DNA of 64,000 nt, from positions 1 through 64,000 of the forward strand of contig JABTUJ010000040.1 of NCBI GenBank assembly GCA_015075445.1. Reading direction: 5' to 3'. The notes beneath the pieces are model-generated. The model was not told the DNA's origin and searched no databases. It saw only the letters and a list, made by a program, of their open reading frames with translations. Of this stretch, positions 4,163 through 51,046 are shown one piece after another; positions within the stretch are counted from its first letter, which is position 1, and every line of letters begins with the position of its first letter. The position numbers were made by a program, and so were the translations under genes. The stretch is from Verrucomicrobiales bacterium (GTDB taxonomy: Bacteria; Verrucomicrobiota; Verrucomicrobiia; Limisphaerales; J093).

Positions 4163-5071
4163 ATGACCCCCGGCCGCCGCGCGTCCTCCGTCCGGCGGCG
4201 CGTCCTGGCCGTCACGGCGGCCGGCGCCTTCGCCTCCCACGCGCCCAGCGCCGCCCAGGACACGACCCGCTCAGACGACGCCCGGCCGGAGGCGTCGCGT
4301 CACCACCTCTTCCATCCCACGCCGCGCCCGTGGCTGCGCGCGCTCAGCGCCGACCGGCCCGATCAGACCGAGTCGCCCTACACGGTGGATCCCGGGCGTT
4401 TCCAGGTGGAGATGGATCTCGTCAAGGCGGTGTGGGACTCCGACAGGTCCGGCGGCGACGAGGTGCGCACGACGGGTTGGGGGACGTCGTTGAACCTGAA
4501 GGCGGGACTGTTGGATCGCGTGGACCTCCAGTTCGTGCTTGACCCCTATGTGAGCGAGCGTGTCGAGAGGCGCTCGACCGGCGCGGTGACCGAGGCTTCG
4601 GGCCTGGGGGACTTGCAGACGCGGCTCAAGATCAATCTGTGGGGGAATGACGGTGGGAGGACGGCGTTTGCGGTCATGCCGTTCGTCAAATGGCCGCTCT
4701 CTGCGTCGGGCCTGCGCAATGGCGAGACCGAGGGCGGCCTGATTCTGCCGTTCAGTGTGGAACTGCCGGCAGGCTGGGGGATGGGCATGATGACGGAGGT
4801 CGGCTTTGTCAGCTATGGGACCGACGGCCACCACCCGGAGTATTTCAACACCCTGACCTTCGGCCACGATCTGGTCGGGGAGCTAGCGGGCTACGTGGAA
4901 TTCGCGGCGTTGGTCGCCCCGAAGAGCGGGGCGGAGTGGCAGGGGCAGTTGGGCGTGGGCTTCACGTACGGTCTGGGCGCGAACACCCAACTGGATCTCG
5001 GCTGCAACTTCGGGGTCACCGAGTCCGCGCCGGACTTCAACCCGTTCCTCGGTGTGACTTTCCGGTTCTAG
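4163..5071 (+). CDS. outer-membrane beta-barrel protein, MetA-pathway-like transporter
   Basis: Predicted outer-membrane barrel similar in style to the Phenol_MetA_deg transporter family. I chose ATG 4163 (302 aa) because the longer reading from 4094 runs through the probable regulatory inverted repeat. An Arg-rich start and hydrophobic AVTAAGAFASHAPSAA form a signal peptide ending near residue 30. The mature protein starts with a DRPDQTESPYTVDPGRFQVE segment and has alternating amphipathic strands with Gly-rich turns. It ends in a C-terminal aromatic strand GVTFRF, the usual signal for barrel assembly. It is divergent from mntR, so a role in metal handling is possible but unproven. Confidence 0.65.
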   Translation: MTPGRRASSVRRRVLAVTAAGAFASHAPSAAQDTTRSDDARPEASRHHLFHPTPRPWLRALSADRPDQTESPYTVDPGRFQVEMDLVKAVWDSDRSGGDEVRTTGWGTSLNLKAGLLDRVDLQFVLDPYVSERVERRSTGAVTEASGLGDLQTRLKINLWGNDGGRTAFAVMPFVKWPLSASGLRNGETEGGLILPFSVELPAGWGMGMMTEVGFVSYGTDGHHPEYFNTLTFGHDLVGELAGYVEFAALVAPKSGAEWQGQLGVGFTYGLGANTQLDLGCNFGVTESAPDFNPFLGVTFRF

Positions 5072-5242
5072 CGTGAGTCTCGTGACCTCGACTCCTACCG
5101 CTCCCTCCGTAGGCGCCGACGTGAGGAGGCTCAGACTGGCGTGAGTCTCGTCACCTCGACTCCTACCGTCCCACGGTAGGCGCCGACGTGAGGAGGCTCA
5201 GCCTGGCGTGAGTCTCGTGACCTCGACTCCTACGGTCGGGCG
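5072..5242 (+). repeat. 67-68-bp tandem repeat with GTAGGCGCCGACGT core
   Basis: Two full units and one partial of a repeat starting at 5072, 5140 and 5207, each beginning CGTGAGTCTCGTGACCTCGA. The unit includes the GTAGGCGCCGACGTGAGGAG core also seen at the window start and near 16.2 kb. It begins one base after the stop codon of the outer-membrane-protein gene. The rest of the gap up to the MFS gene at 5378 shows nothing I can name. Confidence 0.9.
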
Positions 5243-6781: not shown

Positions 6782-8169
6782 TCAGTCTTCCGGCAGGCCC
6801 TTGCCCTTGGTTTCCGGGGCGAAGGGCAGGGCGGCCAGGCCGATGAGAAACACGGCGCACAGGGAGATGCCGGCGTAGCGCAAGGGGAGGAGTCCGGGCA
6901 GGTGCCCGAACACCTTGCTGGTCAGCAAGCCCAGCGTGAGCGGTCCCGCGGCGGCCACAAAGCGGCCCACGTTGTAGCAGAATGAAACGCCGGTGCTCCG
7001 CAAGCGTGTGGGGAACAGTTCGGGGAAGTAGATGGCGTAGCCGGCGAACAGCCCGAACTGGCCGAACGCCATGAGGGGGACCAGCCAGAACAAGTCGCTC
7101 TGTTGCCGGATCAACGCGAAACCCAAGGCGGTGCAGATCAGGGCCAGGACGAACGCGAGGCCGAAGGACGGGCGCCGGCCGATCCGCTCGTTGAGGATGC
7201 TGAACGTCCACATCCCGGCAAAGGCGCCGACGTTGATCATGATGCTGGCGATGCCGGCCCAGAGGTTCAGCTTGCCCGCCACGACCGCTGGCGCCAGCCC
7301 CTGCGCTTCAAACGTCTGCCGCAGCACCGCCCGAATCAGGTCGATGCTGAAGAACAGGATGCCCCACAGCCCCACCACGCCGGCAAACGCCAGTAGAAAG
7401 CCGATCAACGCGTGCCGGCGCCAGCGTGGATGGCCGAACAGCTCCGCGTAGGACCCAGCGCGGTGCGGCTTCGCAGCCGGCGTCGCCATGGCCTGTTGCC
7501 AGCGTTCAGGTTCCTTGAGTCGTCGCCGGATGAACACCACCAGGAAGGGCCGGAGGGCGCCGATCAGAACATCACGCGCCAGGCATCCCACGTCCCCAGG
7601 TGACCGGCCTGCTCGAGCCAGCCCATGCTCATGCTGATCAACGCCGCGGTGACGTTCCCCACCGTCGAGAGCGTCTGCAGCAGTCCCAGCGCGTAAGGCC
7701 GCGCCGGTCGGGCATCGTCTCCGCCACTAACGCCACCCCACCGCCCATTCGCCCCCACCCCCAGCCCGGTCAGGAAGCGGTAGAAGGCAAAATCCCAGAA
7801 CCCCACCGAGGCCGCGCTGAGCCCCGTGCAAATCGAGTAGATCAGGATCGTGATCAGCATCGTCTTGGCCCGCCCGATCCGGTCACCGAGGATGCCGAAA
7901 CCCAGCCCGCCGGCGGCCCAACCCACGAGGAAGATGGCCGTCGCGTAGCCGCCGTACTCCGTCACGACGCGCATGTCGGCAGTCCCCAGCAAGTCCTTCA
8001 TCGCCGGGACGCGGGCGATGTTGAAGAGCTGTTGGTCCAGGCAGTCGAAGAGCCACCCCAGGGCGGCGACGACCAGGACGAACCAATGATAGCGGTTGAG
8101 GGAACGCCACCACGCGGGGTGACGCGAGGTATCCGGCGACGCCGGGCGGTTCGCAGGCGACATGTTCAA
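6782..8169 (-). pseudogene. MFS transporter, frame-broken (probable base-calling deletions)
   Basis: Second MFS permease, paralogous to the one at 5378. The N-terminal part reads from 8169 and contains YHWFVLVVAALGWLFDCLDQ. It stops at a TGA near 7570, and the C-terminal part resumes in another frame to 6782, ending APETKGKGLPED. Adding one C in the TTCTGATCGG stretch near 7570 joins the two parts as WRVMFLIGAL. Three further apparent one-base G losses at about 7710-7770 scramble GLGVGANGRWGGVSGGDDARP; restoring them gives GGEWAVGVALVAETMPDRARP, the normal helix-4 sequence. Four losses in G/C runs with no other damage suggest sequencing error or a very recent pseudogene. Confidence 0.8.
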
Positions 8170-8234: not shown

Positions 8235-9407
8235 TCAGATCTTGCCGAGGGCGCTTTCCACGACCCGTTTGAAGAGGTTCTCGCCCACGTTGACGATGCG
8301 CATCTCGCGGCGGGCGTTCTCGACCGAGTCACTGGCGTGCGCCGCGTTCACCATGATGTTCGAGCCGAACTCCCGCCGGATCGAGCCCGGCGGCGCCTTG
8401 GTCGGATCGGTCGGGCCGAGGACGTCGCGGATTTTGGCCACGGCATTGACGCCTTCGTAGATGAGGGCGATGCACTTCTCGGTGCCGGCCGAGGTCATGA
8501 GCGAGGGATCGCACTCGCTCGGGCTGCGGCCGGCCATGAAGCGGACGATGTTCTCGAACTGGTTCTCGCCGAACACCGGCCCGAGCACCTCGCCCAGCTT
8601 CTTCTGCTCGGAAAGCGGGATGCGGAAGCCCAGTTCTTTTTCCAGGATGTCCCGGGCCCGGTTGGCGACGACGTCCTGGAGCTTGGTGCGGAGGATCTCG
8701 CGGACGGGGCCATAAAACTCCATGGCCTGGGCCACGCTCATCTGGTGCAGCTTGATGCCGACGATGAACAGCCCTGTGCGCGAGAAGAAATCGATCATGT
8801 TGCCCGGACGCCCCGAGGCGAACCGGAAGTTGTCGGGCTTCAGCAGCACCAACGTCCGCTCGGGTTTTTCCTCGGGCTCGTAGTGGACGACCTCCTCAAG
8901 CACGCCGCCGTCGGCGTCAGCATACTTGGCCCAGATGCGGAGCTTGGCGACGGCTTCGTCCGGCGTGGGGGCGGCGAGGACGGCGGGTTCGAAGTACCGG
9001 ACGTTGTCCTGTTCGTCCAAGATGAGGTCGCCGTAGGTCTCGCGGATGGTCTGACCTCCGCGGCGGTGCAGGCTGAAGCTGCCCACGACGCTGCGGACCT
9101 GCCGGACGGCATCCTCACCCTTGAACAGGAGCAGCATGACGCGCCGCCGGCGGCCGGACTTTGGATCCGGGCTGAACTGCGCGAGGACGTAATCGCGGAT
9201 GAGCTCTTGAATCCGGCGGTCCTGGGGGTCGTGGGTCGAGACGACCTGCTCGGCGTACTCGCGCACGAGCTCCGGGCTGGGGGCAAACATCCGGGCGGCC
9301 ACCAGGTCGACATTCGTCCGGGCAATCAGCCGGGCAATGATCCCGCCCGTCCGGGATTTGTGGAGGGAGTGGGGCGTGATGAGGGCGTAGGCGAGCTGTT
9401 CGGGCAT
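8235..9407 (-). CDS. double-domain nucleoside diphosphate kinase-like protein
   Basis: Nucleoside diphosphate kinase-like protein of 390 aa, about 2.7 times the usual 140-150 aa, because two NDK-like domains are fused. The C-terminal domain (about 180-390) starts RTLVLLKPDNFR and ends with SIRREFG then NAAHASDSVENARREM, which carries the phosphorylated histidine (H357) of the NxxH(G/A)SDS active-site motif. The N-terminal domain has a parallel layout with TIRETYGDLIL, but aligning the two places N135 where the histidine should be, so it is probably non-catalytic. The catalytic domain also has an insertion around DILEKELGFRIPLSEQ. It lies 14 bp after the DUF5679 gene on the same strand. Confidence 0.8.
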   Translation of the reverse strand: MPEQLAYALITPHSLHKSRTGGIIARLIARTNVDLVAARMFAPSPELVREYAEQVVSTHDPQDRRIQELIRDYVLAQFSPDPKSGRRRRVMLLLFKGEDAVRQVRSVVGSFSLHRRGGQTIRETYGDLILDEQDNVRYFEPAVLAAPTPDEAVAKLRIWAKYADADGGVLEEVVHYEPEEKPERTLVLLKPDNFRFASGRPGNMIDFFSRTGLFIVGIKLHQMSVAQAMEFYGPVREILRTKLQDVVANRARDILEKELGFRIPLSEQKKLGEVLGPVFGENQFENIVRFMAGRSPSECDPSLMTSAGTEKCIALIYEGVNAVAKIRDVLGPTDPTKAPPGSIRREFGSNIMVNAAHASDSVENARREMRIVNVGENLFKRVVESALGKI

Positions 9408-9965: not shown

Positions 9966-11435
9966 ATGAAAACCCATTACCTTGCCTGCGACCTCGGTGC
10001 CGAGAGCGGCCGTCTCATGCTCGGGACCCTTGAGGACGGCCGGCTGACGCTGACCGAACTCCACCGGTTTCCGAACACCCCCATCGACGAAGGTGACCGG
10101 TTGCTCTGGAACCTGCCGGCCTTGCTCGACGAGGTGACCGAGGGCCTCAAGAAAGCTGCGGCTCTGCGGGTGCCGATCGCGAGCATCAGCACGGACTCGT
10201 GGGGGGTGGACTACGTGCTCTACGACGAGGCCGGGGCGCGGCTGGACCCGGTGTATCACTATCGTGACGCCCGAACCGCCCAAGGGGTGGAGGGTGTCCT
10301 GGCCAGGCTGAGCTGGCCCCGGATCTTCGCCGAGACCGGCCTTCAGTTCCTGCCGTTCAACACGCTCTTTCAGCTTGCGGCCGAATCCCCGGACCGACTG
10401 GCCAGTGCCGACCGGATCCTGGGGGTGGGCGATGCCTTCAACCACTGGCTGGGGGGGCGGCCCTGTTACGAGGAGTCGCTGGCCAGCACCACGCAGCTCT
10501 ATGACCCGCGGATCCGGGCCTGGTCCCGGACGTTGCTCGACGCCTTGGGCCTGCGGGCCGACTTATTCCCGGCCATTGTTCCCTCGGGAACGCGGTTGGG
10601 TCCGTTGCGCGCCGATCTGGCGGCCGAGACGGGCTTGCAGGGCGTCGAGGTGGTGGCCAGTTGTTCGCATGACACGGGGGCGGCGGTTGCCGCTGTGCCG
10701 GCCCAGGGCGACGACTGGGCCTACCTGAGCTCGGGCACGTGGTCCCTCATGGGGGTTGAACTGTCCCGACCGGTGCTGGACGACCGGGTGCGCGAGCTGA
10801 ACTTCACGAACGAAATCGGGTTCGGCGGCTCCGTCCGGTTCCTCAAGAACATCATCGGCCTCTGGATGGTCCAGGAATGTCGCCGGGAATGGGCCCGGCA
10901 GGGTCAGGACTACGACTACGCCGCCCTGGCGCAGCGCGCGGCCGAGGCCCCCGCCTTCGCGGCCCTGGTGAACCCCGCGGACCCGCGGTTTGTGAGTCCG
11001 GGCGACATGCCGGGCAAGATCGCGGCGTTCTGCCGGGAACACGGCCAGCCGGAGCCCGCCACCCCGGGAGCCTTCATCCGCTGCATTCTCGAAAGCCTGG
11101 CGCTGCTCTACCGAAAGACGCTCCGCGAGCTCGCGGACGTGACCGGGCGGAAGCTGGGGCGACTCCACATCGTCGGGGGAGGCAGCCGCAATGCCCTGCT
11201 GAACCAGTTCGCCGCGAATGCGTGCCAGGTCCCGGTCGTCACGGGCCCGGTGGAGGCGACCGCCGCCGGGAATGTGTTGGTGCAGGCCATCGGGCTGGGA
11301 CATCTGTCCTCCCTGGCCGCGGCGCGGGAGGTGGTGCGGAGCTCCTTCGACACCGGTATCGTCGAGCCGGCGGATGCGGCGGTTTGGGACGCGGCCAATG
11401 CGCGTTTCGAGCCGTTGCTCGCAGCCCGCGACTGA
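9966..11435 (+). CDS. rhaB: rhamnulokinase
   Basis: FGGY-family carbohydrate kinase that phosphorylates L-rhamnulose in rhamnose breakdown. ATG 9966 gives 489 aa, the normal length; the upstream in-frame extension to 9831 looks non-coding. The first ASKHA phosphate motif appears as YLACDLGAESGRLMLG, and STDSWGVDYVL is the typical RhaB substrate-lobe segment. HYRDARTAQGVE follows. The second ATP-binding motif is SSGTWSLMG, then NEIGFGGSVRFLKNIIGLW, which distinguishes rhamnulokinases from other FGGY kinases. LHIVGGGSRNALLNQFAANA is the adenosine motif. No other rhamnose gene is near. holB follows after 32 bp on the same strand. Confidence 0.9.
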   Translation: MKTHYLACDLGAESGRLMLGTLEDGRLTLTELHRFPNTPIDEGDRLLWNLPALLDEVTEGLKKAAALRVPIASISTDSWGVDYVLYDEAGARLDPVYHYRDARTAQGVEGVLARLSWPRIFAETGLQFLPFNTLFQLAAESPDRLASADRILGVGDAFNHWLGGRPCYEESLASTTQLYDPRIRAWSRTLLDALGLRADLFPAIVPSGTRLGPLRADLAAETGLQGVEVVASCSHDTGAAVAAVPAQGDDWAYLSSGTWSLMGVELSRPVLDDRVRELNFTNEIGFGGSVRFLKNIIGLWMVQECRREWARQGQDYDYAALAQRAAEAPAFAALVNPADPRFVSPGDMPGKIAAFCREHGQPEPATPGAFIRCILESLALLYRKTLRELADVTGRKLGRLHIVGGGSRNALLNQFAANACQVPVVTGPVEATAAGNVLVQAIGLGHLSSLAAAREVVRSSFDTGIVEPADAAVWDAANARFEPLLAARD

Positions 11436-17853: not shown

Positions 17854-18579
17854 ATGAGGGTAGGAGGAGCGGATTGAACACTCCCCCTCCCTCCCAAACC
17901 GGACAGGCGGATCTCCCGCATCCGGCTTTCCAGTCCGTGGCTGCCGATGGAGGTGGCCAGGCGTGGAGGTCAAGGCGTCAGAATGACTCCAGCCAGCCGC
18001 GCAGGCTTGCGCCCCGCTCATCCCGCTCGCGCAGGACGGTCCACTGTCGGGTGGGGATCCGATGCCAAGCCCGGTGTTCCGGCGCATCCGAGCGAACAGC
18101 CTTGCGGCACTACCCGGACCCTTGTGGGATGGCACTCGTCTCGCTCCCAACACCACGTTCCTACCCCCCTTCGCTCCACGATCATTACTCGCTTCCGCGC
18201 TACTACGGGGGCTCTGACCCCGACCGGTTCCGTTCTCGCCACCGGCCGTGGTTCCCTGATTCACGTCACCAGAACTTCCCACCATTCTGTCTCCAACCAT
18301 CGACGGCCCTCGATCAGACGCGCTCCACTCCCTCAACGCTGACCGCTCTATTTCGTTCGGGCTTCGCCCCGCACTCGCCGGCTCGCCAGAACCGCCGACC
18401 GAATCGAGTTCACACTGCCCGCCCTTACGGACAGACGTTGTTACGGACTGGTGGTTCACTTCCAGTTGCTCTCCACCCGGGGTTCTCGCCCCGATGCAGT
18501 TACTTTCAGTTACTGGCCCTACAGTGTCGGCCAGGTCAGGGACTTGCACCCTGCTGTTCCAGTGCGCTCTCAGGCGCAC
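17854..18579 (-). mobile_element. group IIC-like intron without an ORF
   Basis: Minus-strand group II intron of 726 nt. It starts GTGCGCC at 18579 and ends CCCTCAT at 17854. The domain I start has the characteristic GGGTGCAAGTCCC and AGTCCGTAACAAC stretches. Near the 3' end the domain V region reads AGCCGGATGCGGGAG then ATCCGCCTGTCCGGTTTGG. The 5' exon is a hairpin followed by ACTC, which fits group IIC introns that insert after terminator-like stem-loops. The 1,957-nt intron at 39542 has the same ends and the same target. No reverse transcriptase is encoded here, so mobility would need one in trans. The long ORF crossing it is spurious. Confidence 0.85.
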
Positions 18580-39541: not shown

Positions 39542-41498
39542 ATAGGGGTAGGGATGGCGGGGTTAGCGCCACCCCTCCCTCCGAACCGTACGGGCGGATT
39601 TCCCGCATACGGCTCTCCGGTCAGTGGGGTCTCTGCGAGACTAACCGTAAGCGCATGAGCCATGTTCCAGACTAAACAGGCCCTGCGCCGCAAACCATCG
39701 GTTCGGCCAGCGTCGGCTGTCGGCTTCACTCAGCCCGTATCCGGGCCGCTTTTCCCGCTTGCGCAGCAGGGCCCGCAAGCGGCGGCGCAGCCAGCCGTCC
39801 GGTCCGCGCAGGCCCGTCCAGTGACTGTTCCCGAAGTAACCGTGCCAACCCCGCAGGATCGGGTTCACCTGCGCGATGATCTCGCCCAGACTTTGCCCGT
39901 GGGTCCGCCGCGTCAGCGGTCGCAACCGTTCCTGCAGCTTCTGGAGGCTCTTCTTCCGCGGCCACTTCTTCCCGCCGCGAAAGTGCCAGCCCAGGAAGTC
40001 GAAGCCGACCTCGGTCGCGTTCACGATCCGCGTCTTGGTCGGGTGCAGGGTCAGCCCCGCCCCCGTGGTCCAGGCCCGCAGAAAGCTCAGCACCGCCTCG
40101 GCTTCCTCCCCGCTCTGGCACAGCACGACCAGGTCGTCCGCATAGCGCACCATCGCCCAGCCCCGCCGTCCCATCTCGTGGTCCAACGGGTTGAGGTAGA
40201 GGTTCGCCAGCATCGGACTAATCACCGCCCCCTGCGGGGTCCCGCGTTCGGTCGGCTGCCAGCCCTTGAGCTCCTCCAACACGCCGGCTTTGAGACATTG
40301 TTCCACCAGCGTCAGGACGCTGCCGTCCACGATACGCGCTTGGACCAACGCCATCAGCCCCTCGTGCGGAATCGTATCGAAGTAGCTCTTGAGGTCCGCG
40401 TCCACGCACCAGACGTAGCCTCGGCGCAAGAGCTCCTCCACCTGTCCCACCGCTTCCCGACAGCCGCGCCCCGGTCGAAACCCATAGCTGCACTCGGCAA
40501 AGTCCTGTTCGAAGATCGGTTCCAGAACGTTGCGCAAGGCCGCTTCCACGGTCCGATCCCGCACCGCCGGGATCCCCAGCGGCCGTTGCTCGGTCGTGCC
40601 CATCTTTTCGATCCAGACGCGTCGTGCCGGTTGACGGCGGTAACGCTGGGTGCGCAGTTCTTCCTCCAGTCGGGCCAGTTCAGACGCCGCCTCTCGGTCA
40701 AACTCCTGCACCGTTTGCTCATCCACTCCGGGTGCTCCCCGATTCCGCCATACCGCTTGGAAGGCGGCCTGCAGATTTCGAGGCACACGCACTTTGTCCC
40801 AGAGTCCGAACCATACCGTTGTCGGCCCGCTTTGGGCGAGCCGCGTTAGCATCCGGTCCGTCCACACCGAACGTTCGATCCACCCTCGGAGGTCGCGGAC
40901 CTCTCCGGCTTGTTTAGGCTGAGTCGCCCCAGTCACTATCGCCGGTCGTTCTTTCCGTTCGTCGTTCGTCATGGTCGTTCCGTCTCCACTTTCCTGCGTC
41001 CCTTCGCTCCCCGGGCATTACCCCGCTTCGACGCTACTACGGACGCTCTGACTCCCCTCGGGCGGCTCTTCGGGCCTCCGCGGCCATGAACACCGTTCTG
41101 TACCCCGACGGGTCTCCCTGCTTACTTCGCCCATGCTTCCCTCCGTTCCGTCCCCAACCACCCCGCCGCCCCAGCCCCGGCATTTGCGTCCATCCACCTT
41201 TTCGTCTGCCGGTAACCGCCAGCCAGCGGACCCGATCTCCGGGGGGAGACCGAGGGAGCGTTTCCCACGCGGGTCATGGCTTGGGCTTCGCACAGCACTC
41301 GCAGGCTCGCCGGTCGGCGTGGCCGAATCGGGTTCACGTTGCGGGTTCAATACTTCGCATTGTTACGGACCGGTGGTTCACCTCCGGCAGCTTCCCACCC
41401 CGTGTTGCCACGACGCAGTAGCCTTCGGTCACAGGCGGGTGAATGTGCCGCCTGACGGGGACTTCCACCCCGCAGTATGGGCGCCCTCACAGGCGCAC
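39542..41498 (-). mobile_element. group IIC-like intron with reverse transcriptase
   Basis: Complete minus-strand group II intron of 1,957 nt, from GTGCGCC at 41498 to CCCCTAT at 39542. The 5' exon is a stem-loop GCGCCG/CGGCGC followed by ACTC and the 3' exon starts CAAACGC, the same target architecture as the ORF-less intron at 17854. Domain I has AGTCGGCG-type and GTCCGTAACAATG stretches. The domain V region near 39590 reads AGCCGTATGCGGGAAATCCG then CCCGTACGGTTCGG. The ORF at 39641-40972 lies in the domain IV region. Insertion after a terminator-like hairpin and the lack of an endonuclease domain agree with class C. Confidence 0.88.
39641..40972 (-). CDS. ltrA: group II intron reverse transcriptase/maturase
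   Basis: 443-aa intron-encoded protein. RT motifs in order are APGVDEQTV, PLGIPAVRDRTVEAALRNVLEPIFE, SYGFRPGRGCREAV, DADLKSYFDTIPHEGLM, GTPQGAVISPMLANLYL and the active site YADD (277-280). The maturase/thumb region contains GFDFLGWHFR, RPLTRRTHGQSL and ILRGWHGYFGNS. There is no HNH endonuclease at the C-terminus, as in IIC enzymes. It should splice its own intron and move it by target-primed reverse transcription, and might also serve the 726-nt ORF-less copy. Confidence 0.92.
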   Translation of the reverse strand: MTNDERKERPAIVTGATQPKQAGEVRDLRGWIERSVWTDRMLTRLAQSGPTTVWFGLWDKVRVPRNLQAAFQAVWRNRGAPGVDEQTVQEFDREAASELARLEEELRTQRYRRQPARRVWIEKMGTTEQRPLGIPAVRDRTVEAALRNVLEPIFEQDFAECSYGFRPGRGCREAVGQVEELLRRGYVWCVDADLKSYFDTIPHEGLMALVQARIVDGSVLTLVEQCLKAGVLEELKGWQPTERGTPQGAVISPMLANLYLNPLDHEMGRRGWAMVRYADDLVVLCQSGEEAEAVLSFLRAWTTGAGLTLHPTKTRIVNATEVGFDFLGWHFRGGKKWPRKKSLQKLQERLRPLTRRTHGQSLGEIIAQVNPILRGWHGYFGNSHWTGLRGPDGWLRRRLRALLRKREKRPGYGLSEADSRRWPNRWFAAQGLFSLEHGSCAYG

Positions 41499-46971: not shown

Positions 46972-47135
46972 CCGGACTGGCCTCGGGTCCGGGCGGCGTG
47001 TCAAAGCCGGCGCCCGGTCCCTGCCGTCGGGGCCGATGGCTCCGCATGCGAATCAGCAACCCTGAACCTGCTCGCCGAAGCCCGAAATCCGCTTGTCACC
47101 GAAGCCGGCCTTCCTCAACCCTCTCCCCCATCAGC

Positions 47136-50100
47136 ATGGCCACCCAGCAGACCATCGTGAAGCCCGACTTCCCCGAGGCGCTGCTCCGGATGGAGGACGG
47201 CGGGGCGCTGCAACCGCCGATTCTCTTCGGCCGGTTCGAGCTCCGCCAACTGGTGCGCCGCTCGCACATGAGCCTGCTGTGCCGGGGCACGCGGGGGGAC
47301 ACCGGTGAAGCGATGGCCGTGAAGATCTGCCTGAAAACCGCCGACCGGGCACGTTTCGAGCGCGAGATTAAACACACCCATAGCATCCGCTTCGCCGCGG
47401 TCATCAAGATTCAGCCGGGAGACGTGGGGGTGACCAAGGACGGCTGTCCCTTCTACGCCATGCCCTGGATTGAGGGACCAACCCTCGGTGCATTTCTTGA
47501 AGACAAACGGCGGTCGGCCGACGAGAAGCTGCGTGCCGTGGAGGAACTGGCGCGGATCGTCGCTGTGCTGCACGAGAAGGGTGTGTGCCATCGCGATCTG
47601 AAGCCCTCGAACGTCATGGTCGAAGGGGGCCGCTGCGAAAGCATCAAGTTGCTGGACTTGGGGTTGGCGCGTTCGGAGGCGGACGATCTGACCCTAACCG
47701 GGGTTCACGTTGGCGGCACACCAGGGTACTATCCGCCGTGGAGCGTGGAGCGACCCGGGCTGATCAAGACCTTCGAGAGGCAGTGGGACGTGTATTCTCT
47801 TGCGGTGATCTTGGTTGGAGCACTCACCGGAGTGCGCCCCGCTGGGGAAAGTGACCCCAACTTCACTCCGGAGGGCGTCAAGGAACTGTTGAGGAAGCAC
47901 TTGCCCGGCGACCGCCGCTTTGACGCCTTGCTGGCTCGTTGCCTGGCCGCCGATCCCAATCAGTGTCCGCCCTCCGCCGACGATTTCTACACCGCCTTCC
48001 GCGCCTGCCGCGGACTGCGCCACCGCCCCGCGAGAACCCTGCCGTACGCCATGGCGGGCGTGCTGGGATTGGCGCTGCTCGCCGGGGCCCACGAGGGTCT
48101 TCGCCGCCTTGCGCCAGAGCGCTACGAAATCGCCCGGGCCTGGCTTCTCGGTGCGGGAACCCTCCCGCCTCCCAATGAACCGATCGTCGCCCCGCCCGAC
48201 CCGCGTATCCTTTCCTACTCCAACGCCACTGTCCGGCTTTCGGTGTCGCCGCCGGGGTCGGGCGTGCACGTTATCAACCACCGCGCCAACGGCGTGGTGC
48301 TGACGAATCTCACCGTGACCGCCTCCGGAGAGGTGGATCTCCTGCTCCCGGAAGACCCGGCGGCCGACTACGGTCTGCTCGTCTTCAAGGCCGGTTATCA
48401 TGAATACCGGCAGTCACTCAAGCCCGGGAGCGGCCCGATCGAAGTCCGGCTGGAACGGTTGCGCAGCGAACTGGAGTTCCGGTCCACTCCGGGTGCCCTG
48501 ATCGAACTGCGCCACGCCGATGGCGAGACCCGCATGGCCGGACCCGTTCCCGCCGGCGGTCAACTCCTGGTCCAATCCCTGGACGAAGGCGACTGGACCT
48601 GGCGGATCACGCGTGCGGACTACGAGACAACCACGGGCAAGGTCACCGGCTTGGCCTGGGGCAAGAAGCAGGTCGTTGACCGTCCGCTCCAACCCCTGCC
48701 CGGCCGGTTATCCGTGGTTGGCCACCCCACGATGGAGGTATGGAGGGGCAACACCCGTCTGCAGCCCACCGACGGGTGGATTCCTCTCGCGGCAGGGGCG
48801 CAGGATTTGGAGTTGCGACGCCGAGGTTTCCGGAGCCAAGCCCTGCGGGTGGAGATCCTGCCGAACCGCGACCTCTCGCGAGTGGCGGAGCCGTTTGTTC
48901 CCGAGGCCGGTACCTTGCGAGTGAGTCTGGACCTGCCGGCGGCGGCGGCGGAGTGGTTCGCCCAGGCGACCAAGCGGCTCAGCCTGGATGGCGTTCCGTT
49001 GAATCCTGGGTCCTTTCCGCACACCGAGGAAGATGTGGGTGCCGGGTCGCACACAGTCCGCCTCGAGGTGGACGGGTTCACGTCCGAGGAACGCCTCGTG
49101 GAAATCCGCGACGGCGAGGTCAGCGAGGTGCGGTTCGCGCTGCAGCTCCTACCGGCCCGGTTGACGGTCGTGTCGGAACCGGCCGACGCGGAGGTCTTTC
49201 GCGGCGAGAGCCGGCTGGGACGGACCGGTGCGGAGTTGTCCATTCCCCCTCTCGAACGGCTCGAACTGGAAGTCCGTGCAGCCGGTTGGCGGACGGCGCG
49301 TCTCCTGGTCCCCGCGGTGTCGCCCGGCGGCGCGCACCGTCAAGAGGTGAAGCTGGAAGATCGCGACGACTTGTACCGTCGTGCCCTCAACGACCTGCGC
49401 ACGCGGTCCCTGCTGCAGGCCACCCGCGAAAGCCCGTGGACGAACAGCCTCGGCCTGAAGTTCGTCCCCGTCGCTGGGACGGGAGTCCTATTCTGCATTT
49501 GGGAGACGCGCGTGCAGGACTTTGAGGCCTTCGTCCAGGCCACCGGCCATGACGCCACCCAGGGCATGTCCTCGCTACGGAAGGACGGTTGGAAGCATCA
49601 CGGCGACACCTGGAAGTCGCCGGGGTTCCGGCAAGGGCCGACGCATCCGGTCGTAGGGGTGAGCTATGACGATGCCGCGGCGTTCTGCGCCTGGCTCACG
49701 GCGAAGGAACAGCGCGAAGGGCGATTGCCCGCAGGCTGGACGTATCGCCTGCCCACCGACAGCGAATGGAGTGCAGCCGCGGGCAACACCTCGTACCCAT
49801 GGGGTGACGCCTGGCCTCCCCCCAAGGATGCCGGCAACTATGCCGGTGAGGAGGCGAAAGACGAGAACTGGCCGGACAACTGCATCGTGCCCCCGAACTG
49901 GCGGGACCGCTTCCCGCGCACCGCCCCGGTCGGGAACTTCGCGCCTAATCCGTTCGGCCTCTATGACCTCGGCGGCAACGTGATGGAATGGTGTTCGGAC
50001 TGGTATGGCAAGGCGATGAACACGGACGAAGTGAGGAGGTTGATGCCTGAGCTCGACCAGGATCATCTGAACACCGCTCGCGTGTTGCGTGGGGCTTCGT

Positions 50101-50216
50101 GGCTCAACGGCTCCCACGCCGCCTTTCTGGCTTCCGGGAGTCGCGGCATCGGCGGTCCCGAGGATCGCATTGACATCCTTGGCTTTCGGGTGGTGGTAGG
50201 TGGTGGGTCGCGCTGA
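47136..50216 (+). CDS. transmembrane Ser/Thr kinase with variable FGE/C-lectin domain (DGR target)
   Basis: 1,026 aa from ATG 47136. The N-terminal kinase (about 31-290) has K63 in MAVKIC, CHRDLKPSN (151-159) and DLG at 174-176, but its Gly-rich loop is degenerate (RRSHMSLLCRG). One membrane helix (about 303-317) follows. Residues about 360-760 are repeated PEGA-like beta modules. The C-terminal domain (about 770-1026) is a formylglycine-generating-enzyme/C-type-lectin fold: FVPVAGTGVLFCIWETRVQDFEAF, HPVVGVSYDDAAAFCAWL, YRLPTDSEWSAAAG, GLYDLGGNVMEWCSDWY. The last 47 residues are the variable repeat, ending DILGFRVVVGGGSR. Topology puts the kinase inside and the variable domain outside, so it reads as a receptor kinase with a diversified sensor. 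Retroelement parts follow directly. Confidence 0.88.
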   Translation: MATQQTIVKPDFPEALLRMEDGGALQPPILFGRFELRQLVRRSHMSLLCRGTRGDTGEAMAVKICLKTADRARFEREIKHTHSIRFAAVIKIQPGDVGVTKDGCPFYAMPWIEGPTLGAFLEDKRRSADEKLRAVEELARIVAVLHEKGVCHRDLKPSNVMVEGGRCESIKLLDLGLARSEADDLTLTGVHVGGTPGYYPPWSVERPGLIKTFERQWDVYSLAVILVGALTGVRPAGESDPNFTPEGVKELLRKHLPGDRRFDALLARCLAADPNQCPPSADDFYTAFRACRGLRHRPARTLPYAMAGVLGLALLAGAHEGLRRLAPERYEIARAWLLGAGTLPPPNEPIVAPPDPRILSYSNATVRLSVSPPGSGVHVINHRANGVVLTNLTVTASGEVDLLLPEDPAADYGLLVFKAGYHEYRQSLKPGSGPIEVRLERLRSELEFRSTPGALIELRHADGETRMAGPVPAGGQLLVQSLDEGDWTWRITRADYETTTGKVTGLAWGKKQVVDRPLQPLPGRLSVVGHPTMEVWRGNTRLQPTDGWIPLAAGAQDLELRRRGFRSQALRVEILPNRDLSRVAEPFVPEAGTLRVSLDLPAAAAEWFAQATKRLSLDGVPLNPGSFPHTEEDVGAGSHTVRLEVDGFTSEERLVEIRDGEVSEVRFALQLLPARLTVVSEPADAEVFRGESRLGRTGAELSIPPLERLELEVRAAGWRTARLLVPAVSPGGAHRQEVKLEDRDDLYRRALNDLRTRSLLQATRESPWTNSLGLKFVPVAGTGVLFCIWETRVQDFEAFVQATGHDATQGMSSLRKDGWKHHGDTWKSPGFRQGPTHPVVGVSYDDAAAFCAWLTAKEQREGRLPAGWTYRLPTDSEWSAAAGNTSYPWGDAWPPPKDAGNYAGEEAKDENWPDNCIVPPNWRDRFPRTAPVGNFAPNPFGLYDLGGNVMEWCSDWYGKAMNTDEVRRLMPELDQDHLNTARVLRGASWLNGSHAAFLASGSRGIGGPEDRIDILGFRVVVGGGSR
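50073..50210 (+). repeat. DGR variable repeat (VR)
   Basis: 138-nt stretch at the 3' end of the kinase gene that matches the template repeat 271 bp downstream. Both begin ACCGCTCGCGTGTTGCGTGG and share GGCTTTCGGGTGGTGGT near the end. By hand alignment of the 25 differing-region codons, 18 of 26 template adenines are changed against 10 of 49 other bases, and the VR has two extra codons. This adenine bias is the signature of DGR mutagenic homing. Confidence 0.9.
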
Positions 50217-50266
50217 GGCCGTTCCTCCTTCTTTCCCTTTATGTGAACCTCTTACCCTTTTCCCCT

Positions 50267-50321
50267 GCGCGCGAAGCGCGCCGGAAATTTCTTGATGATT
50301 TCGGCCCGGCGAAGACCGGGC
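50267..50321 (+). other. two hairpins between VR and TR
   Basis: GCGCGC-GAA-GCGCGC at 50267-50281 and GCCCGG-CGAAGA-CCGGGC at 50304-50321, both perfect. DGRs commonly have a hairpin or cruciform just after the VR that boosts homing. Here the first lies about 57 bp after the VR, further than in the Bordetella phage system. Either may alternatively terminate the kinase mRNA. Confidence 0.55.
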
Positions 50322-50343
50322 TGGAAGTGGAAGACCGGACCAA

Positions 50344-50475
50344 ACCGCTCGCGTGTTGCGTGGGGCTTCGTGGAACAACAACCACGCGGCCAACCTGGCT
50401 TCCGGGTATCGCAATCACAACACGCCCGAGAATCGTAACGACAACAACGGCTTTCGGGTGGTGGTGGGCGGGTCG
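50344..50475 (+). repeat. DGR template repeat (TR)
   Basis: 132-nt template. Read in the VR frame it contains eight AAC and two AAT codons, for example TGG-AAC-AAC-AAC-CAC and GAC-AAC-AAC-GGC, placed at the positions that differ in the VR. AAC is the preferred DGR codon because mutating its adenines yields 15 amino acids and no stop. The frame stays open through the TR, so a spurious ORF covers it. It is the source of the mutagenic RNA. Confidence 0.9.
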
Positions 50476-50631
50476 TTGCGGAAGGCATTCGGCAGAAGCT
50501 GGCGAGGTGCGCCGCGGGCTTCCGGCCTGCGTCGCGAGAGCCGAGAGGAATCGCCTAACCCGGTCCTCCACGCCCCTGCGGGGGAAAAGACGCGGCGACG
50601 GGCCGTGGCCGGTAGGCCACCCGGCCGAAAG

Positions 50632-51012
50632 TCACGGCCCGCCATCTCCTGCCTCAGGGGACCGTTGGCGTCGGGTCTCCAGCGACTTCAACCAGCCACC
50701 GATCATGCGCCCGACTTCATCCAATTGGCCGGCCACGAACCGGAGCTGCTGCTGGCTGATCCAGCCGCGTTCGGCGATCAGACGCCAAAAGACCCGCAGC
50801 TTCTCGAGCGTGACGTTGATCTTCCGCAGCGGCGTCGCTTTGACCGATGCCGGGGCATATATCGCCTCTATGGTGAACTCCAGGCAGTCAAGTGTCAGCC
50901 GGTCGGCCCGCTCCCCGAAGGTGAAGCGGTGGCTGCGGGGCAGCCCGGCAGTGCGGTCGAGTGACCAGCCGGTGAGATCCACCAGCAGGGTGTAAACAGG
51001 AGGGCGGTTCAT
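50632..51012 (-). CDS. avd: DGR accessory variability determinant
   Basis: 126-aa four-helix-bundle protein of the Avd family, needed with the RT for template-primed cDNA synthesis. It reads MNRPPVYTLLVDLTGWSLDR, then PRSHRFTFGERADRLTLDCLEFTIEAIYA, the typical Avd helix 1-2 pattern, and IAERGWISQQQLRFVAGQLDEVGRMIGGWLKS near the end. Basic residues on the helices fit RNA binding. It is encoded opposite to the RT and TR, starting 35 bp from the RT start, so the two are divergent, and the TR-RT transcript would be antisense to it. The frame extends upstream to 51108; ATG 51024 is an alternative start. Confidence 0.85.
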   Translation of the reverse strand: MNRPPVYTLLVDLTGWSLDRTAGLPRSHRFTFGERADRLTLDCLEFTIEAIYAPASVKATPLRKINVTLEKLRVFWRLIAERGWISQQQLRFVAGQLDEVGRMIGGWLKSLETRRQRSPEAGDGGP

Positions 51013-51046
51013 GGGGTTGTTCATCAGACGATTGACAAACTGGAGC

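Follow-up and report, generated by a model that had tools for sequence, protein, structure and literature searches.

In the diversity-generating retroelement (DGR) of the Bordetella phage BPP-1, the spacer in the template repeat (TR) RNA has a functional role. Silent mutations at both ends of the BPP-1 variable repeat (VR) served to inactivate the target, as described in PMC3240598. The large survey of Roux et al. (2021; PMC8144416) found that in the overwhelming majority of cases at least 75% of TR/VR mismatches face adenine, with seven genuine-looking clusters below 75%. Wu et al. (2018), as cited in the Discussion of PMC12875486, proposed that templates slip on AAC repeats by multiples of three. 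Here, a DGR located in a 64,000-nucleotide (nt) stretch of contig JABTUJ010000040.1 (the window) was analyzed together with the remainder of its assembly, which is of metagenome type, comprises 8.2 Mb in 100 contigs and is 86.7% complete. Judging by its anatomy, the element is a genuine, complete-looking DGR, whose VR lies at the 3' end of a gene encoding a kinase-PEGA-FGE protein. In addition to the adenine-biased mismatches, its VR and TR differ at unusually many bases other than adenine (non-A). We consider it somewhat better than an even chance that this VR is stale, having last been overwritten by an ancestral form of the present TR, with both copies having changed since.

The positions of VR and TR given in a preliminary description of the locus are correct, as are its counts of substituted template adenines (18 of 26) and other substituted bases (10 of 49), which apply to the inner 75 nt (p = 5e-5). 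Across the full core (111 nt, RVLRGASW...GFRV), 18/26 template adenines and 10/85 other bases differ (Fisher p = 3.5e-8), while a longer local alignment gives 19/29 and 12/101, respectively. The 29 template adenines became G in nine cases, T in seven and C in three. This spectrum resembles that of cognate pairs in the same clade (G 25%, T 26%, C 6.5%), so that the adenine changes in the window VR are of DGR type. Mismatches facing adenine account for 19/31 (61%), under the usual 75%. Recently homed pairs are expected to be nearly identical at non-A sites and in the 3' zone, whereas the window pair is not, and the 3' zone of its VR displays two silent changes and one extra codon. The non-A differences in the core, together with those in the 3' zone, therefore argue against recent homing into the window VR, not against DGR status.

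The rarity of this pattern was assessed over 154 TR/VR pairs. Relatives were gathered by reverse transcriptase (RT): 23 loci from genome contigs, 13 regions from 12 genomes (found at phylum and order level, together with two family members) and further loci from IMG/VR (55, 80 and 7, one of the last seven being a repeat). A scripted search for TR/VR pairs kept those with at least half of the mismatches facing adenine, so pairs dirtier still would be missed. From 102 pairs, 16 were dropped as repeat families not tied to an RT (one each at loci L049 and L050, three at L085, nine at L086 and two at L145); hand removal of 2 of 75 new pairs and then of five duplicates among 159 left the final 154. 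In the other 153 pairs, the median non-A change is 1.1% and the 95th percentile 4.4%; only three reach 10%. The window pair, at approximately 12% (12/101), has the third highest rate of all. The highest is that of L088 (18/92), where a stop and a frameshift disrupt avd. The VR of L032 differs from its downstream TR at 14/91 non-A sites, and from its upstream TR at 0/109. At the phage locus L119, 10/95 non-A sites differ while the RT and avd frames are open. Three kinds of precedent thus exist for the window pair: a defective machine (L088), comparison with the wrong template (L032), and a target that diverged next to a machine with open frames (L119). These values provide a yardstick for imperfect TR/VR pairs, where about 1% of non-A change is normal, and values from 10% upwards suggest the wrong template, a machine that is broken or a target long out of use.

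Comparison with other templates indicates how far the two copies have separated. Among 23 templates tested, the window VR is fitted best by its own TR, which ruled out a better-fitting template at hand; similarly, its own VR is the best fit to the window TR among 23 VRs. Cognate pairs of the clade (22 pairs) contain 15 non-A changes at 2413 sites in total, whereas 506 non-cognate pairs between genomes differ at 18-34% of non-A sites (5th-95th percentile), the lowest value, 9.6%, occurring among close relatives. Since the fit is mutual at 10/85 non-A differences, the window VR and TR are kin, but diverged to the degree of sister-species templates. Polarity was examined with the templates of 16 relatives in a codon-table count, out of 22 other templates listed; the copies in the family genomes G003 and G013, the 36-codon upstream TR of L031, L034 and the VR-like copy of L039 were left out. 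The relatives favour the VR base at six of the 10 core non-A sites and the TR base at four. At codons 22 and 23, the window TR reads AAT CAC and the relatives AAC AAC (15/16 and 13/16), which indicates that the TR changed there. At codon 30, all 16 relatives have C at the third position and the window VR has T, indicating a change in the VR. Both copies seem to have changed. For the comparison of TR and VR between strains proposed in the preliminary description, the family offered only distant copies. Another RT match was found in just two of 14 family genomes, G001 and G013 (38-39% identity), TR-like matches occur in G003 and G013, and all these copies are too distant for single sites to be polarised from them. 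In G003, of the same genus, the end of an FGE gene (L054:5132-5242) is template-like, with eight AAY codons, and no related RT was found in that genome.

It had also been noted that non-A changes lie mostly at third codon positions, as one sign that the VR may have drifted. Seven of the 10 core changes are indeed at third positions, although relative to the available sites (7/37 against 3/48) the excess is not significant (p = 0.09). Moreover, when templates are compared between genomes, 41% of third positions differ against 12-15% of first and second positions, and so the bias is not diagnostic; as proof of VR drift it was ruled out. Such a bias between templates would be expected if a target survives only as long as its template can still be read. 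Templates, apparently non-coding, thus diverge like coding DNA, and the bias cannot tell which copy drifted. The idea that the VR predates the present TR or has drifted is nonetheless the best-supported option, resting on arguments that differ in part from the original ones and with change apparent in both copies.

Both extra codons of the window VR are present, and the reading frame continues intact through each. Singling out GGC near 50109 as the first of them is arbitrary, because four VR codons face three template AAC. The extra codons had been taken as a sign against mutagenic homing; for the first, this does not hold. Among pairs with (AAC)3 or a longer run in the TR, 7 of 33 carry an in-frame internal indel, compared with 1 of 121 among the others (p = 8e-5); the figures are 5/31 and 1/121 (p = 0.0014) when the window pair and the non-cognate L032 pair are set aside. 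All seven indels of the former group sit within the AAC run, each length change is a multiple of three, and extra codons in the insertions have the form NNC, as expected of mutated AAC. In L092 (VR 10502-10637, TR 8695-8818), four codons are added in an (AAC)4 run with 0/89 non-A changes. Sibling VRs equal in length to the TR exist in each of L032, L033 and L086, which favours a change in the copy, whatever its date. The first extra codon of the window VR is therefore of a known kind, AAC slippage having already been published, and codon insertions are not foreign to homing, since they are found at AAC runs in otherwise adenine-only VRs; codon gaps at AAC runs provide no argument against homing. 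For the second extra codon (GGT beside GGT and GGG, outside the AAC run), ordinary slippage on a repeat within the VR is probably the better explanation. Should slippage prove to be a general source of length change, DGRs would vary the length of the loop as well.

The features of the element are listed in Table 1.

Table 1. Positions of the DGR features in the window
Feature	Position	Strand	Basis or remark
Target gene, kinase-PEGA-FGE protein	46998-50216	+	Open reading frame list; 1072 amino acids from predicted start
VR, 3' end of target gene	50073-50213	+	75% match to TR, mismatches clustered at template A
First extra codon: VR CTC AAC GGC TCC, template AAC AAC AAC	50103-50114	+	
VR 3' zone: GTA GGT GGT GGG, template GTG GGC GGG	50196-50207	+	Second extra codon and two silent changes
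Hairpin GCGCGC-GAA-GCGCGC, then AAATTT, 3' of VR	50267-50281	+	Putative target-recognition hairpin, by analogy with BPP-1
TR	50344-50480	+	Alignment with VR; sole TR-like sequence in assembly
(AAC)3 run in TR, opposite first extra codon	50374-50382	+	
Structured spacer RNA, four conserved helices, 3' of TR	50502-50639	+	Covariation in 14 sequences
avd, 126 amino acids from ATG inside shared CATG	50632-51012	-	Pfam bAvd PF22296, 1.1e-13
DGR-type RT, 378 amino acids	51011-52147	+	RVT_1, 5.5e-13

The target protein matches Pkinase (1.7e-20), PEGA (5.3e-7) and the C-type-lectin-like FGE-sulfatase family (2.7e-39) in Pfam. The clade of this DGR occurs mainly in Verrucomicrobiota; in a tree of 19 RTs the nearest relatives of the window RT are L036 and L031, from genomes labelled Verrucomicrobiota, while a few RT relatives carry the labels Planctomycetota or Bacteroidetes. 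Most of the RT relatives adjoin adenine-biased TR/VR pairs. The motifs YTDD and GNLTSQ are common to all 19 aligned RTs, and every position invariant in the 19 is present in the window RT. At the 103 positions invariant in the 18 others it has one private change, within the range of 0-5 observed for those. The avd frame is open from CATG; a single palindrome (window 51010-51013) forms the head-to-head start of avd and RT, and an avd on the strand opposite to the RT is common among relatives in this clade. The four helices of the spacer contain 25 pairs. In 14 sequences, 96% of the cells are paired and 16 pairs changed on both sides; none of 500 shuffles attained the covariation score, and 24 of the 25 pairs of the window spacer are standard. 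The spacer RNA probably has a role in the window DGR. The hairpin downstream of the VR is shared by all 18 aligned VR flanks. In the window, the RT, the Avd, the spacer RNA and the putative target hairpin all look intact, and from sequence the element could still work. An Rfam search of the window returned two group II intron pieces only (39542-39617 and 17854-17930). Another RT is present in four copies of equal score and identity on contigs C4, C13, C24 and C36 of this genome, one of them at window 39905-40780.

The suggestion of a remote VR with adenine-only changes led nowhere in the assembly, which was searched in full. The TR as DNA query gave strong matches only to itself and the window VR, the VR as query recovered no strong match outside this pair, and a pattern joining AAC codons to a GFRV end matched the window TR alone. 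A protein search with the FGE domain yielded nothing beyond the known pair, the FGE paralogues being listed without alignment to the TR. With approximately 13% of the genome absent from the assembly, a second target is possible; a second TR or VR may have been lost or left unassembled. Downstream of the window RT there is no TR. In relatives, a TR directly 3' of the RT lies inside the RT open frame at L031:7087-7197, L032:4656-4766, L037:1812-1922, L038:3027-3137 and L053:376-486, and in a different reading frame of that stretch at L043:7055-7165. L031 and L032 have an upstream TR in addition to the downstream one, and the non-A sites that the two L032 templates have in common are 16.7% divergent. 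Two VR-like copies are present at six relatives' loci (L032, L033, L037, L042, L046 and L086). The copy at L039:7051-7164 occupies the downstream-TR position, has few AAC codons and is VR-like. In L042, two VR-like copies (5034-5144 and 7146-7256) stand beside the RT, and no adenine-biased template pair was found in 13 kb.

In the explanation preferred here, RT and Avd would make error-prone cDNA from the AAC-rich TR RNA, the errors falling at adenines, and this cDNA would overwrite the 3' end of the kinase-PEGA-FGE gene. An ancestral form of the TR would have written the local VR for the last time, after which VR and TR would have changed independently at non-A sites, with selection on the encoded protein acting on the VR. 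The first extra codon most likely arose from slippage of the RT on (AAC)3 during that old copying, the added AAC then being mutated like the others, whereas the extra GGT would stem from repeat slippage of the ordinary kind. Several observations weigh against this explanation. The polarity argument leans on relatives with templates about 20% or more different. The first eight core codons contain 0/24 non-A changes (hypergeometric p = 0.03), a result not expected from plain drift. Furthermore, an element that had been idle for long enough to diverge by about 12% might well have decayed, and the intact-looking RT and Avd fit an unseen second target better than plain idleness. Concerning slippage, the gap in L031 lies outside an AAC run, in a pair whose TR is without (AAC)3 and has a core one codon shorter than usual, so the TR may have been shortened there rather than the VR lengthened; out-of-frame internal gaps in two pairs (L043 and L104) were left out of the codon-indel count.

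The window VR may instead have been written by a different template, which was lost, is unassembled, or belongs to another strain with the VR gene recombined in. This is rather unlikely, though relatives with a downstream TR make a lost second TR a serious rival: two TRs exist in L031 and L032, the L032 VR agrees with one at every non-A site while its distance from the other is near the window's profile, the two L032 templates stand well apart, and diversification in trans by the TR of another locus has been published (PMC10907252). On the other hand, the own TR fits best, and a second TR came to light neither in the assembly by VR search or pattern nor downstream of the window RT. It is also possible, if less than probable, that an active machine is kept for a VR missing from the assembly, the window VR being no longer a target; this is compatible with a stale VR. 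The apparent constraint on RT, Avd and spacer RNA, the incompleteness of the assembly and the six relatives' loci with two VR-like copies point in that direction, whereas the 8.2 Mb searched revealed no second VR and the hairpin behind the window VR is still intact. Because silent VR-end mutations inactivated the BPP-1 target (PMC3240598), the silent 3'-zone differences may, speculatively, have locked the window VR. Decay beginning in a wholly inactive element is improbable: the pair with the most non-A changes, L088, does have a broken avd, but the window element has open, conserved RT and avd frames and retains its spacer helices, and L119 diverged to a similar degree despite open RT and avd frames. 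An assembly or sequencing error, or a strain mosaic, is very improbable. The assembly is fragmented and of metagenome type, yet the frame is kept through both extra codons and the prevalence of third positions among the core non-A changes is unlike random error. A broader conjecture, which we regard as doubtful, is that AAC runs in FGE-type DGRs are built-in slippage sites varying binding-loop length in addition to sequence (by up to four codons in L092), and that the window VR is frozen, perhaps by silent recognition-zone changes, with the intact machine kept for another target.

Compared with known systems, the window element agrees with DGRs targeting FGE-sulfatase or C-type-lectin-like domains in its DGR-type RT, bAvd, AAC-rich TR and downstream hairpin, and in an adenine-biased VR that forms the 3' end of a gene for an FGE-domain protein. 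It differs in its non-A change of 12% against the median of 1.1% and in its inverted avd. The adenine share of its mismatches places it in the rare class below 75% of Roux et al. (2021; PMC8144416). With BPP-1, whose mode of action it would share, it has in common RT and Avd, a TR RNA with spacer, and a VR that has a 3' recognition zone and is followed by a hairpin (PMC3240598 and PMC12875486). The window element differs from BPP-1 in that it is not on a recognised phage and has an inverted avd; its hairpin loop is GAA, compared with the 4-nt GRNA loops of phage DGRs. The length changes described here resemble the slippage of Wu et al. (2018), as cited in PMC12875486, in being multiples of three within AAC repeats, and differ from that account in having been counted over 154 pairs, including one case of four added codons.

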